Shown here: in pieces, positions 4,931 through 28,003 of the stretch
How positions within the stretch are numbered: position 1 is the stretch's first letter
How the letters are laid out: the number at the start of each line of letters is the position of its first letter
Source: a virus
Strand: one strand, 5' to 3'
IMG/VR virus record: IMGVR_UViG_3300038466_000120
Span: 1 to 28,003 of that record
Length of the DNA stretch: 28,003 nucleotides
Made by a program: the position numbers and the translations under genes
Notes under the pieces: generated by a model
Seen by the model: the letters and a program-made list of their open reading frames with translations, nothing else
Told to the model about the DNA's origin: nothing
Databases searched by the model: none

Positions 4931-6100
4931 CTAAGTGAGTCCTTCAATTTCAATATTGCATTCTGCATAAACCAGATGCGGAATAACTATCGAAAAATCC
5001 TTATAAAATCCGTAAACGATTAATGGCGAAAAATTCTCAACGCCAATCCATACAAGTAATGTACTGCGATACAGCGCAAGCAGGTTTTGCACATCGGGGA
5101 TCGACGCAAACTCAATTTCTATGTCGCAGGACATCCGCTTTGAAAACGCACGCTCAGACACACTGTAAACCCCGTATTCGTCAACCGCTTTAATCGAATA
5201 GTCGTGTATTCCAATATTTGGATTCCATCGGGTCGTGCCGATTGTTGATTGCAGTCCCAAAACGATCGCGCCGACTTTGGCCGTCTCCCCCGTGTAGGTG
5301 ATCGTAACATCTACAACCGCATTCAGGTATGGAGGGATATCGAGTATCGCTATGTCCGTTGTTCTGAATATCGAACTGAAAAAGTAGGTGTACCAGTCGA
5401 TCGTGGTTCCAGCCCCCGAGATAACTGTCGTCTGGAGATCGGTCGTATGGTCATAAACCACGCCCTCAACCGGATCGGTTAAAACAACCTGGACCGTTAT
5501 GGCGTCAAGGTTCAGAAATGCGATGCTGTCATATACCTGCCCCGGCGTGATACAGTATGTAATTGATGTGGCCTGAGAGGTCTGCGACCCGACTTTATTA
5601 TCAAAGGCTTTCCAACGGTTTGTAGCCGATACTTCTTTCCACCACAAAGGAGTATCAAGAGCGAGGTCAGTAGCCGGATCATTCCCCACATTCGGAGCAC
5701 TTGAAAATACCGGGTTAGCTGCGCCTTGATCTGCTAAAAGGACGGCGGTTCCGGTAACCCCGACGATCTCCCCCAGGGTAAACGCCCCGGAGCGATCCTT
5801 GATATAATACGTAAGGGAAGTTATATATTGTTCAATAATGCAGGTTTGAAGGCTGGTTTGACCGGTGATTTTCCAGTCAGGCAACCACGGAGTAGAGGGG
5901 GCAACGTCCAGAGTCAGGATTTCTCTGGCTGTCGGCGGCAGGGACTCATAAATCTTATGGCTGGAATCAACCCTGACCTGATCCCCGCCGTAGTAGGTAG
6001 TTCCGGCTGCATAGGCGGCGACAGTTTCCGGGACATTGGACCCGCCGGATCCGTCCGGCAGCATGGCCGTTGTAATCGTGATCGGACGGATTATTTTCAT
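4931..6100 (-). CDS. Minor tail / tail tip protein with chitin-binding-like motif
   Basis: This is a 389-aa protein. Near residues 28-52 is the pattern AAGTTYYGGDQVRVDSSHKIYES, cited here as its key residues Y-Y-GDQV and KIYES. This resembles the short aromatic carbohydrate-binding motifs (CBM5/12-like) common in tail tip proteins. The remainder is beta-rich with many Trp and Tyr. The C-terminal ~100 residues (CDIEIEFASIPDVQNLLALY) look like a tail-domain fold. Its ATG overlaps the TGA of the tape measure gene (ATGA), with GAGGAG upstream, so translation is coupled. Position directly after the tape measure fits a distal tail or minor tail protein. Confident that it is a tail gene, less so about the exact role. 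Confidence 0.65.
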   Translation of the reverse strand: MKIIRPITITTAMLPDGSGGSNVPETVAAYAAGTTYYGGDQVRVDSSHKIYESLPPTAREILTLDVAPSTPWLPDWKITGQTSLQTCIIEQYITSLTYYIKDRSGAFTLGEIVGVTGTAVLLADQGAANPVFSSAPNVGNDPATDLALDTPLWWKEVSATNRWKAFDNKVGSQTSQATSITYCITPGQVYDSIAFLNLDAITVQVVLTDPVEGVVYDHTTDLQTTVISGAGTTIDWYTYFFSSIFRTTDIAILDIPPYLNAVVDVTITYTGETAKVGAIVLGLQSTIGTTRWNPNIGIHDYSIKAVDEYGVYSVSERAFSKRMSCDIEIEFASIPDVQNLLALYRSTLLVWIGVENFSPLIVYGFYKDFSIVIPHLVYAECNIEIEGLT

Positions 6101-10691: not shown

Positions 10692-10712
10692 TTTCTATAA
10701 CCTCCGAAATAA

Positions 10713-10783
10713 TAGGGTTCAGGGTTCAGGGTTCAGGGTTCAGGGTTCAGGGTTTCCTATACCCTCGACCCTATCCCCTATGC
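10713..10783. repeat. GGGTTCA heptad array (family A)
   Basis: Five to six near-perfect copies of GGGTTCA in a row (10713-10755), then degenerate copies in the opposite sense (ACCCTCG, ACCCTAT). It fills the space upstream of the tail tube gene. It also supplies the stop codon and last residues of the 45-aa protein at 10740-10877. Confidence 0.9.
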
Positions 10784-10877
10784 CCTGCTTTATTAATTCC
10801 AGATATTCCTCTTCCGTGATCTCGTTTCCTTCGGCATCCAGGTGTCTGGTTCCGCCAGTGTTGCATTTATCTTCCAT
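10740..10877 (-). CDS. 45-aa small acidic protein
   Basis: This frame starts at an ATG with AAGGAG nine bases upstream, a good ribosome-binding site. It encodes a 45-aa acidic protein. The first 33 residues (from MEDKCNTGG, then LDAEGNEITEEEYLELIKQ) look like ordinary helical coding sequence. The last ~12 residues (GDRVEGIGNPEP) come from the family A repeat, whose antisense register supplies the TGA stop. It sits between the tail completion and tail tube genes. No family recognised. Real on the strength of its ribosome-binding site and composition. Confidence 0.55.
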   Translation of the reverse strand: MEDKCNTGGTRHLDAEGNEITEEEYLELIKQGIGDRVEGIGNPEP

Positions 10878-10886
10878 GGTATAAAT

Positions 10887-10957
10887 CTCCTTGTTTCTGG
10901 TTTCTGGTTTGTGGTTTCTGGTTAAACTATAAACCAGAGACTAAAGACCAGAGACCA
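10887..10957. repeat. TTTCTGG heptad array (family B) with inverted half
   Basis: Copies of TTTCTGG/TTTGTGG run from 10890 to 10924 and are followed by inverted variants (ACCAGAG, ACTAAAG). TCTGGTT (10918-10924) and AACCAGA (10933-10939) can form a 7-bp hairpin with an eight-base loop. It separates the tail completion gene from the 45-aa gene. Confidence 0.8.
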
Positions 10958-10961
10958 ATCT

Positions 10962-13326: not shown

Positions 13327-14250
13327 TTAGGTAAATGTATACATGCAGGCATGCTGCCAGTAGCCATAGCCCACATTCCGGATCGCCTTCACGCCGTACT
13401 GATGCTTGTTTTCTTTGAACTCAAGCTCGGAACCTTCGGCAATCGCCGATACCGTGATCCCCTCTTCTTCCTGGCGGATAAACGGTTTTGTCTGACCATC
13501 TGCCCGGAACACATAAAATATAGCTCCAGATGAGAGCCTCGGGTTAATGGCAAGAGAAAAACTGAATCCATCGATATTCTTGATGAGATTGCTCTGGCCG
13601 GATGCGATATAATCATTGTTGAGCACAGCCGCGAAAGGCGGTAAATATACCGTGGGAACCATGAGCTTGAACTTGCTTGCGCCTTCGTTCATCGGCTCGC
13701 CCTGATCATCCTTGAACCCTAATATCGCTGCAACGCAAGCCATTACAGCCGCTTCCGCTTCCGCTGCTGTGGGCTGTGTGGATGTTGCGGCCGCACCTGT
13801 AAGATCATTGTCCTGCGTGCCGCTGTCGCCCTCACTGTGGTCGGTATCGAAAAAATACTGACCATCGTAACAGACGGCGGAAGATCCGGCAGCAATCAGG
13901 GTTGACAGCAACGATGCCCAGTGAACATTCGCCCTTTGAGCAAGTTCCGCCACGCGCAGCATGACCTGGCCTGTTTTGTCCCGCCTGATCTCATCTACCA
14001 GGACTTCGAGAGTTGCTTCAAAAGTCTTGTTGCGGATCGTGATGCCGTTTTCCTTGAAGCCTTTGGCATTCCTGCCGCCGATCCATTCACGCATCGCAGG
14101 CGCCATGCCAAGCCATGCGTAGGTTTCTGTTTCCTGGTTGCTCTCAAACAGCATGGAGAGATCCGGGATCCACCCCATTCCGAGATCCGCGGCCAGCTTG
14201 TTATAAAATTCGCCGATTATCGCCCGGCTTGATAATGTTCCTGCACCCAT
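13327..14250 (-). CDS. Major capsid protein, Mu gpT-like
   Basis: This 307-aa protein begins SSRAIIGEFYNKLAADLG and has WIPDLSMLFESNQETETYAWLG, cited by its key parts MLFES-QE-E-Y-WLG and MREWIG-R. It continues ITIRNKTFEATLEVLVDEI and FFDTDHSEGDSGTQDN. These are hallmarks of the Mu-like major head subunit gpT family (HK97 fold). No N-terminal propeptide is evident. Strong AAGGAGG precedes the ATG. The gene follows protease and decoration protein as in many mosaic phages. It forms the icosahedral shell. Confidence 0.92.
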   Translation of the reverse strand: MGAGTLSSRAIIGEFYNKLAADLGMGWIPDLSMLFESNQETETYAWLGMAPAMREWIGGRNAKGFKENGITIRNKTFEATLEVLVDEIRRDKTGQVMLRVAELAQRANVHWASLLSTLIAAGSSAVCYDGQYFFDTDHSEGDSGTQDNDLTGAAATSTQPTAAEAEAAVMACVAAILGFKDDQGEPMNEGASKFKLMVPTVYLPPFAAVLNNDYIASGQSNLIKNIDGFSFSLAINPRLSSGAIFYVFRADGQTKPFIRQEEEGITVSAIAEGSELEFKENKHQYGVKAIRNVGYGYWQHACMYTFT

Positions 14251-18562: not shown

Positions 18563-18599
18563 TGGGTTTTTTGGCCAAAACGCAGAATGAGGGTTTTTG

Positions 18600-18641
18600 A
18601 TAACAGAATGCATGTTATTCATAACAGAATGCATGTTATTC
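18600..18641. promoter_or_regulatory. Two tandem 21-bp palindromic sites, probable activator binding sites
   Basis: A 21-bp unit (ATAACA, seven bases, TGTTAT, then TC) occurs twice without change (18600-18620 and 18621-18641). Each unit has 6-bp inverted arms. The centres lie about 63 and 84 bases upstream of the expected late start, two helical turns apart, like class I activator sites. The binding protein is unknown; candidates in the window are the helix-turn-helix proteins at 21207 and 25510. Confidence 0.7.
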
Positions 18642-18660
18642 ATATTGACATGGAAAATAG

Positions 18661-18713: not shown

Positions 18714-18748
18714 AAAAAAACCACTTTCCCGGCAACAGGAAAATGGTT
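18714..18748 (-). terminator. Rho-independent terminator ending the accessory/early unit
   Basis: On the minus strand AACCATTTTCC pairs with GGAAAGTGGTT (18748-18738 with 18729-18719) in an 11-bp stem with one G-T pair and an eight-base loop. A run of seven T follows (18720-18714). It lies about 20 bases after the stop of the 40-aa gene. Confidence 0.88.
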
Positions 18749-18768
18749 CTTTTGTCATTCTAATTCGG

Positions 18769-18891
18769 TTATGGTTTTATGTTCTCAAGTTTTTTAATGT
18801 GGACAACGACGCCGTTTTCGAATTTAATTTCCAGCGTCCCCCAGAAACTCTTGCTGTTTAATTCCTTTATTAACTTTATAAGCTTCTCCAT
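18769..18891 (-). CDS. YezD-like small protein (DUF2292)
   Basis: A 40-aa frame begins MEKLIKLIKELNSKSFWG and continues LEIKFENGVVVHIKK before ending ENIKP. The pattern of an N-terminal helix, an F/W-G-x-L-x-I-x-F strand, then G-x-V-V-x-I-x-K, matches the YezD/DUF2292 family of small proteins. Their function is unknown. GAGGTGAT lies just before the ATG and overlaps the stop of the ParB-like gene, so the two are coupled. It is the last gene before the terminator. Confidence 0.8.
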   Translation of the reverse strand: MEKLIKLIKELNSKSFWGTLEIKFENGVVVHIKKLENIKP

Positions 18892-23570: not shown

Positions 23571-23768
23571 CTATAGTTTCTGGTTTCTGGTTTCTGGTTT
23601 CTGGTTTTTACAATATCTATGTGATTCCGCGAACGCCTCGCCCTGTTTTACCACGTCGTCAATCAGCGCCGGCAAATGCAATTCTCTGCGACCTCCGCAG
23701 TTCTCGCAAAAAAACTCATTCGGCCGTTTACTGTAATCAAGTTTAATATGCTTCGTTATTTTCTTCAT
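23571..23768 (-). CDS. Small zinc-binding-like protein, second copy
   Basis: This is a 65-aa protein with FFCENCGGRRELHLP and AFAESHRYC: C-x2-C followed by H-x2-C about 30 residues later, a likely single zinc site. The same layout occurs in the protein at 24530-24724, so the two are paralogues. The last 12 residues (NQKPETRNQKL) are encoded by family B repeat DNA. The ribosome-binding site is weak. Its TAG lies one base before the terminase ATG, so terminase translation may depend on it. Function unknown. Confidence 0.65.
   Translation of the reverse strand: MKKITKHIKLDYSKRPNEFFCENCGGRRELHLPALIDDVVKQGEAFAESHRYCKNQKPETRNQKL
23577..23607. repeat. TTTCTGG heptad array (family B)
   Basis: Four tight copies of TTTCTGG. 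It codes for the end of the small zinc protein on the minus strand as the 7-residue period PETRNQK, and lies next to the terminase start. Confidence 0.9.
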
Positions 23769-26321: not shown

Positions 26322-27845
26322 TTACATCTCCCTTTCGATCTCCGATATTCGACTTTCGATATTTTCGCGCCCCAACTCCGCGCTCCCCAGGCCCATCAAA
26401 CAGGCCCTAACTTCCTTATTCAGAAACACCAGCTCCGAGATTCGCCCCGACTTATCCGGATTCGACAGCGCCCATGAGGGCGCCTCCTTAATTTTAAGAT
26501 GTCCTTGCCCTACGCTAATGACCACAGGCGAGCTTTTAACGAGGGCCGCGAGTTCTTTTAAGGGAGAAACCTTTTGCGCCACGCCCTTCTCATTATCAAT
26601 CAAAGAAGTGGATCGTCCAATCGTCCCGGTAACAAAAGTTTCTGGTTCCTGGTTTCTGGTTCCTGGTTTTTTCTGAACCCTAAACCCTTGCCCCTCGACC
26701 CTATCCTTCCACGCCCACGCTTCCGGCAACCCAGCCCTGATCCACTCCGCAATATCAACCCCGGCTTTAAAAGCATCCCCGGGATCCTTCCCGACCGGGA
26801 CCGGCCAGCGCCGATGATTATCCGGGAATCTCTCTTCCCACCATTCGATCGCTTTCCTGCCGGCCTGGTCAAAGTCGAGAGCGTTCAGGATCACCGGCGC
26901 TTTCTTCAACAAGTCGTATGTTTCAAGCTCCGGATGCCGCTGAGCAGATCCGAGGGCAACCACCCCGATCTTGTTTGCCCTGATTTGCCCGTAAACCATG
27001 ATTGCATCAAGCTCCGACTCGATGATCACATACGCCCGGCAGGCGCCGCCCGGGACCAGACACCTCATACCCGATCCGGGCATCACATAATATTTCGGAT
27101 TTTCCTGCTCGGTCCGGATCCGAATCCTTTCCACGCGGAAAGGGGTTCCTGGTTCCTGGTTTCTGGTTTCTGGTTTTTCGATGTACGATGTTCGATATTC
27201 GATGTACGGTATTATTAATCCGACCGGGATCCACAGCTTTTTCTTTGTTTTTCTGTCGTCTTTAAGCGCAGCTTCCAGCCCCCAGGACTCCCGGGGCCGG
27301 TAGAGATCCTTGCCATCTTCACCCGGGTTCCAGCCAAGCATGAATTCTTTTACCCGAACGATATTTATTCCGCGATTTTCCAGCCAGGAAAGTTGCTTGT
27401 CATTATTCAGAAGATTTTCATGCGCCCAGGTTACGAGCTTTTCTGCTTTTTCCTGCCAGATCTCCGGCGGTGCCTGCGCCGGATCCGGAACAAACTCCTG
27501 TTTTTTGGGCGTTTTCTTGACCTTTGACCCTTGACCCTGAACCCTGTACCCTGAACCCTCAACATCTATTCCATATCTCTCAGCCACCCGGGCCACGGCA
27601 TCCGGAAACGTGATCCCGTCTTTCTTCACCAGGAACTCAAACACATCCCCGGCCGCTCCGCACCCAAAACAATAAAACATCTGTTTATCCGGGCTCACCG
27701 AAAACGACCCCGACTTCTCCGAATGAAACGGACACAACCCAAAATAATATTTGCCGTTCTTTTTTAACCCGACCGACTGCCCGATCACCTCAACGATATC
27801 GGCCGCTCTTTTGATCTCCTCTATTTTTTCAGGTGGTATGTTCAT
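26322..27845 (-). CDS. DNA primase (CHC2 zinc finger and TOPRIM)
   Basis: This 507-aa protein starts at the ATG at 27845, which has AAGGA five bases upstream. An ATG at 27899 lies in repeat DNA and is rejected. The CHC2 finger is Cys38, His41, Cys59, Cys62 (CPFHSEKSGSFSVSPDKQ, then FYCFGCG). TOPRIM residues are Glu276 (IIESELDAI) and Asp324/Asp326 (LDFDQAGRKA). The polymerase core matches DnaG-type enzymes that make RNA primers. Three segments are repeat-derived: residues ~97-110 (RVQGQGSKVK), ~216-236 (YIEKPETRNQEPGTP) and ~382-404 (VEGQGFRVQKKPGTRNQEPE). The end, ESRISEIEREM, is also from family C repeat DNA. The insertions fall between domains or in a loop and keep the frame. Confidence 0.92.
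   Translation of the reverse strand: MNIPPEKIEEIKRAADIVEVIGQSVGLKKNGKYYFGLCPFHSEKSGSFSVSPDKQMFYCFGCGAAGDVFEFLVKKDGITFPDAVARVAERYGIDVEGSGYRVQGQGSKVKKTPKKQEFVPDPAQAPPEIWQEKAEKLVTWAHENLLNNDKQLSWLENRGINIVRVKEFMLGWNPGEDGKDLYRPRESWGLEAALKDDRKTKKKLWIPVGLIIPYIEYRTSYIEKPETRNQEPGTPFRVERIRIRTEQENPKYYVMPGSGMRCLVPGGACRAYVIIESELDAIMVYGQIRANKIGVVALGSAQRHPELETYDLLKKAPVILNALDFDQAGRKAIEWWEERFPDNHRRWPVPVGKDPGDAFKAGVDIAEWIRAGLPEAWAWKDRVEGQGFRVQKKPGTRNQEPETFVTGTIGRSTSLIDNEKGVAQKVSPLKELAALVKSSPVVISVGQGHLKIKEAPSWALSNPDKSGRISELVFLNKEVRACLMGLGSAELGRENIESRISEIEREM
26330..26368. repeat. TCGATNT heptads (family C) at the primase 3' end
   Basis: Units TTCGATC, TCCGATA, TTCGACT, TTCGATA and TTTTCGC encode the last ~12 primase residues on the minus strand. 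Confidence 0.65.
26639..26706. repeat. Family B then family A heptads inside the primase gene
   Basis: TTTCTGG and TTCCTGG units (26639-26670) are followed by GAACCCT, AAACCCT, TGCCCCT and GACCCTA units (26674-26706). They code in frame for the linker at residues ~382-404. Confidence 0.9.
27146..27213. repeat. Family B then family C heptads inside the primase gene
   Basis: TTCCTGG, TTCCTGG, TTTCTGG, TTTCTGG (27146-27176) then CGATGTA, CGATGTT, CGATATT, CGATGTA (27179-27207). They code for residues ~216-236 where related primases have a short turn before the IRIR strand. Confidence 0.9.
27518..27560. repeat. Family A heptads inside the primase gene
   Basis: Units TGACCTT, TGACCCT, TGACCCT, GAACCCT, GTACCCT and GAACCCT. 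They code for residues ~97-110, just after the CHC2 domain. Orientation is the stop-free one on the coding strand. Confidence 0.9.
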
Positions 27846-27859
27846 GATTTTCCTTATAA

Positions 27860-28003
27860 AACCTTGCCTTACCTGCCAAACCTTACCATGCCCGACCACA
27901 CCGGGCCATACCGCGCCTTACCACGCCTCGCCTGCCACGCCTTACCACGCCGCGCCCCGCCCGACCACGCCTTACCACGCCGCGCCACGCCGCGCCCGGC
28001 CTT
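27860..28003. repeat. GC-rich pentad array upstream of the primase (family D)
   Basis: About 140 bases made of five-base units, mainly ACGCC, TTACC, GCGCC and CGACC, often in the order TTACC-ACGCC-GCGCC. It runs to the window edge. It supplies the false upstream ATG of the primase frame. I see no gene in it and no clear primase promoter. Confidence 0.9.

Follow-up and report, generated by a model that had tools for sequence, protein, structure and literature searches.

The stretch of DNA analysed here (the window) covers positions 1 to 28,003 of IMG/VR virus record IMGVR_UViG_3300038466_000120, 28,003 bases in all, and carries the gene for a DnaG-type phage primase together with genes encoding a GpA-type terminase, a lambda-family portal protein, an S49 peptidase and a Mu gpT-like head protein. 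The primase is composed of a zinc domain, an RNA polymerase/TOPRIM core and a C-terminal domain. The zinc domain was identified by Pfam as CHC2 (PF01807, E=2e-34 over residues 4–96), while Toprim_2 was matched at 20.5 bits, slightly under its curated cut-off of 22.1. The protein was assigned to the PHROG DNA primases, and Foldseek returned Aquifex aeolicus DnaG (2au3) as the top match, followed by the Bacillus DnaG zinc domain and by polymerase domains of other DnaG proteins (Aquifex, Staphylococcus, Bacillus). The original prediction held that the CHC2 and TOPRIM motifs are intact. Indeed, the CHC2 ligands C38, H41, C59 and C62 and the TOPRIM acids E276, D324 and D326 are all present, and five of them (C38, C59, C62, E276 and D324) do not vary across 44 homologues. 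The conserved Glu plus DxD arrangement and the Foldseek matches to DnaG polymerase domains identify a TOPRIM fold. Comparison of the window primase with two relatives, L002 (70% identical) and L052 (63% identical), gave core dN values of 0.165 and 0.225 against dS values of 1.01 and 1.09, respectively. The primase core is under purifying selection, with dN/dS of about 0.16–0.21.

At the permissive threshold used for the count, the whole window contains 17 period-7 arrays, compared to 3, 3, 0, 1 and 2 arrays of periods 5, 6, 8, 9 and 10. Despite ~90% of the bases being coding, 13 of the 17 arrays fall between genes. Of the other four, three are inside the primase gene and one makes up the end of the portal gene (Table 1). 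These numbers agree with the original prediction that the primase arrays are made of DNA that is intergenic elsewhere. The arrays have the features of short tandem heptamers, that is, head-to-tail 7-bp units found mainly between genes at many loci per genome. Intergenic arrays of family C occur in both orientations, and both C arrays of the primase gene read in the open orientation. The large intergenic block of families C and A is like the primase arrays in kind, and the syntenic gap in the related record G001 (13650–13866) contains heptad arrays too.

The sole large non-heptad array of the window lies upstream of the primase gene, at 27890–28003, where GC-rich 10-bp-type repeats (CCTTACCACGCC...) run off the record end. 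A 21-bp-period repeat (CAGAATG..GTTATTCA) at 18577–18657, located in the gap that follows the portal-side gene, is kept near-exactly in G001 (45- and 35-bp exact matches) amid variable heptads and is possibly a regulatory site. Window positions 18736–18848 correspond to 355–467 of a second related record, G002, in two adjoining near-exact intergenic matches of 66 and 46 bp within otherwise dissimilar regions, which may represent a shared module edge or a short mobile sequence.

Table 1 The primase gene and the heptad arrays located in the window
Feature	Position	Strand	Detail	Source
DnaG-type phage primase, 507 aa	26322..27845	-	ATG at 27845, stop at 26322	Pfam, PHROG, Foldseek
Site 1, family C heptads	27515..27564	-	GGGTTCA/GGGTACA/GGGTCAA; codons ~95-110; zinc/polymerase domain linker	Period-7 detection
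Site 2, family B then A heptads	27141..27208	-	TACATCG/AATATCG, then CAGAAAC/CAGGAAC; codons ~214-235; tip of hairpin 209-217/236-244	Period-7 detection
Site 3, first half, family C heptads	26673..26705	-	Codons 381-391 (DRVEGQGFRVQ)	Relaxed period-7 match
Site 3, second half, family A heptads	26637..26672	-	Codons 392-403 (KKPGTRNQEPET)	Period-7 detection
Degenerate family B array, primase C-terminus	~26336..26363	-	Codons 495-503 (NIESRISEIE)	Relaxed threshold only
C-type array, last portal protein residues	16639..16661	-	GAGVKGQGE	Window array scan
Intergenic heptad block, families C and A	10711..10958	.	Like primase arrays in kind
Intergenic family A array adjoining terminase gene	23571..23611	.		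Window array scan

Period-7 detection in the primase gene found exactly three arrays, at codons 95–110, 215–234 and 393–402, while 2000 codon shuffles gave a mean of 0.004 arrays and a maximum of 1. Those 13-mers of the primase gene that have further copies in the window are confined to residues 98–107, 213–230 and 380–399; that is, the arrays consist of repeats present elsewhere in their own genome. The gene is a single open frame that runs through all the arrays, as had been claimed for three in-frame arrays. Two further features had been overlooked, the degenerate array at the primase C-terminus and the C-type array that ends the portal gene. At the primase C-terminus L052 shows a clear period-7 match (RSNIEDRI). 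The portal gene is the second gene in the window in which a heptad array has turned coding, here at the C-terminus.

A repeat unit of 7 shares no factor with the codon length of 3, so that whichever frame a heptad array is read in, the product is one and the same cyclic heptapeptide, as computed for CAGGAAC (RNQEPGT) and GGGTTCA (GFRVQGS). Therefore, only the orientation and total length of an array matter, and an array is open or closed in all frames alike.

Placement of the arrays in the primase fold

An AlphaFold2 model of the window primase, built with 44 natural relatives, has a mean pLDDT of 85.5. Values below 50 occur only at residues 99–110, 220–224 and 384–422, which are the three array sites. 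In the model, strands 209–217 and 236–244 pair as a hairpin with site 2 at its tip. The arrays had been placed at two domain boundaries and at one turn ahead of the RIRIR strand, in segments expected to be exposed, and both expectations are borne out; all three sites are predicted to be disordered or exposed.

Alignment to repeat-free homologues had been expected to show gaps exactly at the three residue ranges. This proved to be the case at site 2, where the loop comprises 26 residues in the window primase and 7–9 residues in 82 of 97 homologues (mode 8). In L052 this site is empty, with the short form LMNGNVVERVRIR, while L002 has the intermediate form LLVPDFRSPIPVIERIR. Given the length distribution and these two forms, site 2 is, as judged from the aligned sequences, a clean insertion in which the turn was replaced as well. 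By contrast, the expected gaps did not appear at sites 1 and 3, where every homologue has a linker, of variable length and unrelated sequence, and where those of the window primase rank 17th and 11th longest of 97. Unrelated linkers of similar length, which the original prediction had named as evidence against insertion, are thus present in homologues at sites 1 and 3 and not at site 2. The DNA periodicity at sites 1 and 3 shows that these linkers now consist of repeats, which does not imply addition to an otherwise closed structure. The site regions have a dN of 0.455 compared to 0.165 for the core (window primase and L002), and amino acid change in them is 2–3x faster than in the core in comparisons with the relatives, which looks like relaxed constraint.

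The arrays had also been taken to represent three independent gains, a view that did not hold. The site 1 C array is common to the window primase, L002 and L052, and the site 3 C array to the window primase and L002, while the B+A array at site 2 and the A array at site 3 are private to the window phage. Site 3 of L052 carries a different heptad, of CATGCCT type. Since some arrays are common to relatives and others private, the distribution points to at least four events of at least two ages, comprising gains and replacements rather than three equal independent events.

Other repeats at the orthologous segments

Hairpin-tip loops of 12 or more residues occur in 11 of the 97 homologues, and seven or eight of these are recognisable repeats. 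Heptads fill the tip in the window primase, in L066 (ATCGAAC type) and in L075 (GGGACCG type), all with shuffle P <= 0.0005, and weakly in L002 (P 0.03). Other repeats found there are the VIPAQAGIQ palindrome in L011/L026, ISTEGRNL in L055 and a palindromic GC-rich element in L118. In the model of L011, the VIPAQAGIQ peptide caps the equivalent hairpin (196–205/215–224), and a second copy lies within the low-confidence segment 372–381. The hairpin-tip sequence of L008 shares GGGGGTGGCGCAAAG with site 3 of the same protein and is probably a repeat; a search for it as a dispersed repeat gave one exact match in viral contigs, to itself, and none in 198 genomes of the G009 phylum. The long loops of L054, L073 and L027 match no recognised repeat. 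Thus, with L008 lacking copies elsewhere and these three loops unrecognised, not every loop expansion is a repeat.

Site 3 also holds various sequences: VIPAQAGIQ is present in one copy in L011 and in two copies in L009, CHCE-type sequence in L055 and L116, heptads in L098, CFAKASQG in L103 and EPVEGL in L082; heptads are also found at site 1 of L056 and L066. The CHCE, CFAKASQG and EPVEGL sequences are presumed to be repeats partly from their likeness to common bacterial ones. Copies were located for several of the fillings: a 27-mer of the L011/L026 palindrome is found again in the genome it comes from and has 62 matches in a related genome, the phage record of L118 contains its GC-rich element elsewhere too and has the primase at both ends, the L055 27-mer is found in two other records (twice in one), and the CFAKASQG 25-mer recurs within its own locus. 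Record IMGVR_UViG_3300044712_001278 has the primase with the GC-rich insert at both ends (L155, L157), the insert copies differing slightly; either the assembly is permuted and its ends are redundant, with strain variation between them, or there are two genes.

A whole-gene motif scan placed the palindromic motifs at positions 215–216 or 382–418 of the window primase, with one 9-mer exception; as the motifs were picked after inserts had been noticed at the linkers, the scan tests position, not discovery. It was used in place of an inverted-repeat scan of the genes, which was swamped by chance stems, and a 16-mer library from all fetched loci was too noisy for unbiased repeat detection. Of 14 period-7 segments, nine map to one of the three sites, for which a binomial test gives a P of about 6e-4 or lower, although the related sequences are not independent.

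Heptads are also present outside phages. The bacterial genome G096, from the phylum sampled, has dense heptad arrays with many different units, and 8 of 118 genomes belonging to this phylum contain family A arrays. Heptad arrays are thus chromosomal as well as phage-borne. Host DnaG as the usual array target was considered and dropped, since none of three chromosomal DnaG genes from heptad-bearing genomes contains a period-7 array. In G096, two arrays (L145, 8509–8621) apparently encode the N-terminal portion of an open frame of 653 codons (NKKPETRNQRNQ...LETDNPKPETRNSKL).

Known repeat systems and interpretation of the primase arrays

The original prediction regarded the arrays as a rare case. 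However, homologues carry other heptads and unrelated palindromic repeats at the same linkers, and in-frame capture of repeats has been published (PMC10969869, PMC2700814, PMC4679880). In-frame insertion in protein genes is established for the Rickettsia palindromic elements (RPE) (PMC10969869). Like the primase arrays, RPE are genomic repeats taken in frame into genes that are unrelated or essential, the encoded peptide being compatible with the structure. However, RPE are ~100–150-bp palindromic elements of one genus, while the window inserts are simple period-7 direct repeats and do not qualify as RPE proper. Unlike in RPE, orthologous sites of one protein family, the primase, receive several unrelated repeat families.

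Heptamers within genes have also been described. In Geobacter metallireducens, predicted regulatory RNA elements with four heptanucleotide repeats lie within and between genes (PMC2700814). The hairpin insert of L075 shares the GGGACCG unit type with these elements, whereas window families A, B and C are other units and are carried by a phage; moreover, the Geobacter study made no alignment to repeat-free orthologues (PMC2700814). TAACTGA direct repeats are found in Beggiatoaceae, Cyanobacteria and Bacteroidetes, upstream of starts in Beggiatoaceae, and the stop-codon consequence of 7-bp units was already noted for them (PMC4679880). These repeats resemble the window arrays in being period-7, mainly intergenic and horizontally scattered, and within ORFs they occur only in the stop-free orientation, mostly at protein ends (PMC4679880). 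However, TAACTGA is one fixed unit, while the window phage carries several units in one genome, mixes them in composite arrays and has arrays in linkers within a core enzyme. The VIPAQAGIQ palindromes (GTCATTCCCGC...GCGGGAATCC) appear to be dispersed repeats that are read in frame within the same segments of the primase (L009, L011/L026), but each is a single palindrome and not a heptad array.

We found no description in the searchable open-access literature of orthologous segments of one protein taking several unrelated repeat families. What is new is that orthologous linkers repeatedly accept unrelated repeats; in-frame repeat capture and heptamers in genes were already known. The homologues provide a comparative series of empty, short, heptad-filled and palindrome-filled states at orthologous points of one enzyme. 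With this series, the conversion of noncoding repeat to protein can be followed and tested, as opposed to being inferred from single cases. One prediction is that array copy number in genes may shift only by three heptads (21 bp), while intergenic arrays are free of this restriction.

The reading we favour, with a probability of roughly 0.75, is that tolerant segments of an ordinary, selectively maintained DnaG-type primase took up spreading repeats, filtered by tolerance. Short period-7 arrays, numerous in the phage genome and in bacterial chromosomes alike, would turn over between genes. An array landing in a gene would be retained only if its orientation is stop-free, the frame is preserved and the segment is a tolerant one outside the fold. 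Disordered or exposed segments, such as the zinc/polymerase linker, the beta-hairpin tip and the TOPRIM/C-terminal linker, would tolerate added sequence, and in other lineages the same segments would be filled with whichever repeat each carries. Retention would come about through tolerance rather than benefit. More tentatively, the three segments may be general landing pads, at which the lineages infected by these phages repeatedly install the currently spreading repeats by repeat-copy recombination. If so, one could read from the filling of a segment which repeat was active at that time in the host or in the phage population, and the spread of repeats would keep supplying a replication enzyme with new linker sequence.

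It is unlikely that the arrays are instead functional DNA or RNA sites, for a regulator or for RNA binding, with the peptide incidental. The majority of window arrays are intergenic, and a regulatory role has been proposed for heptamer arrays in other organisms (PMC2700814, PMC4679880), but relatives have unrelated repeats or none at the same primase sites, which argues that no particular DNA sequence is required. Moreover, the family mix at one site varies between close relatives.

Slightly less probable still is that the repeats were selected as adaptive linkers, whereby a longer zinc/polymerase tether or hairpin tip alters the helicase or template interaction. DnaG requires its zinc and polymerase domains to move relative to each other, and the three segments have been lengthened repeatedly by differing sequences, as such selection would have it. 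Yet the hairpin tip is short in most homologues and empty in a close relative, and the elevated dN of the site regions has the look of relaxed constraint. That the arrays are chance low-complexity sequence or an assembly artefact is highly improbable, even though the sequences are metagenomic assemblies: the primase gene holds three arrays where codon shuffling gives close to none, two more records from other metagenomes show heptads in frame at these sites, and the arrays (up to 68 bp) are below typical read length.

Movement of arrays among related phages

If tolerant segments took up spreading repeats as proposed, the arrays would probably arrive ready-made, via short-homology recombination or gene conversion between arrays, and not by slippage in place. 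The longest exact match between the records of L002 and L052 (G001 and G002) measures 71 bp and contains the site 1 block; the flanking coding sequence is clearly lower in identity between the two. This pattern, a single case, suggests recent exchange of an array-centred block at site 1. The C+A layout of site 3 recurs intergenically in G002, at 5890–5940. The exact composite junction patterns (B+A, C+A) had no match in viral contigs, leaving a fixed composite unit unsupported there. Arrays as general recombination boundaries between related phages were likewise considered and dropped, as the enrichment of exact-match tracts near arrays is slight (3 of 23 between the window and G001, versus ~6% of the sequence).

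The related phages also share a 52-bp exact match (L126 81–160 in G001, 29669–29720 in G002), part of which is the 3' end of a tRNA-Val gene. The G002 copy adjoins a gene at 29797–30897 that has a homologue in G001, and by position this gene and the 52-bp match are a candidate integrase and attachment site.
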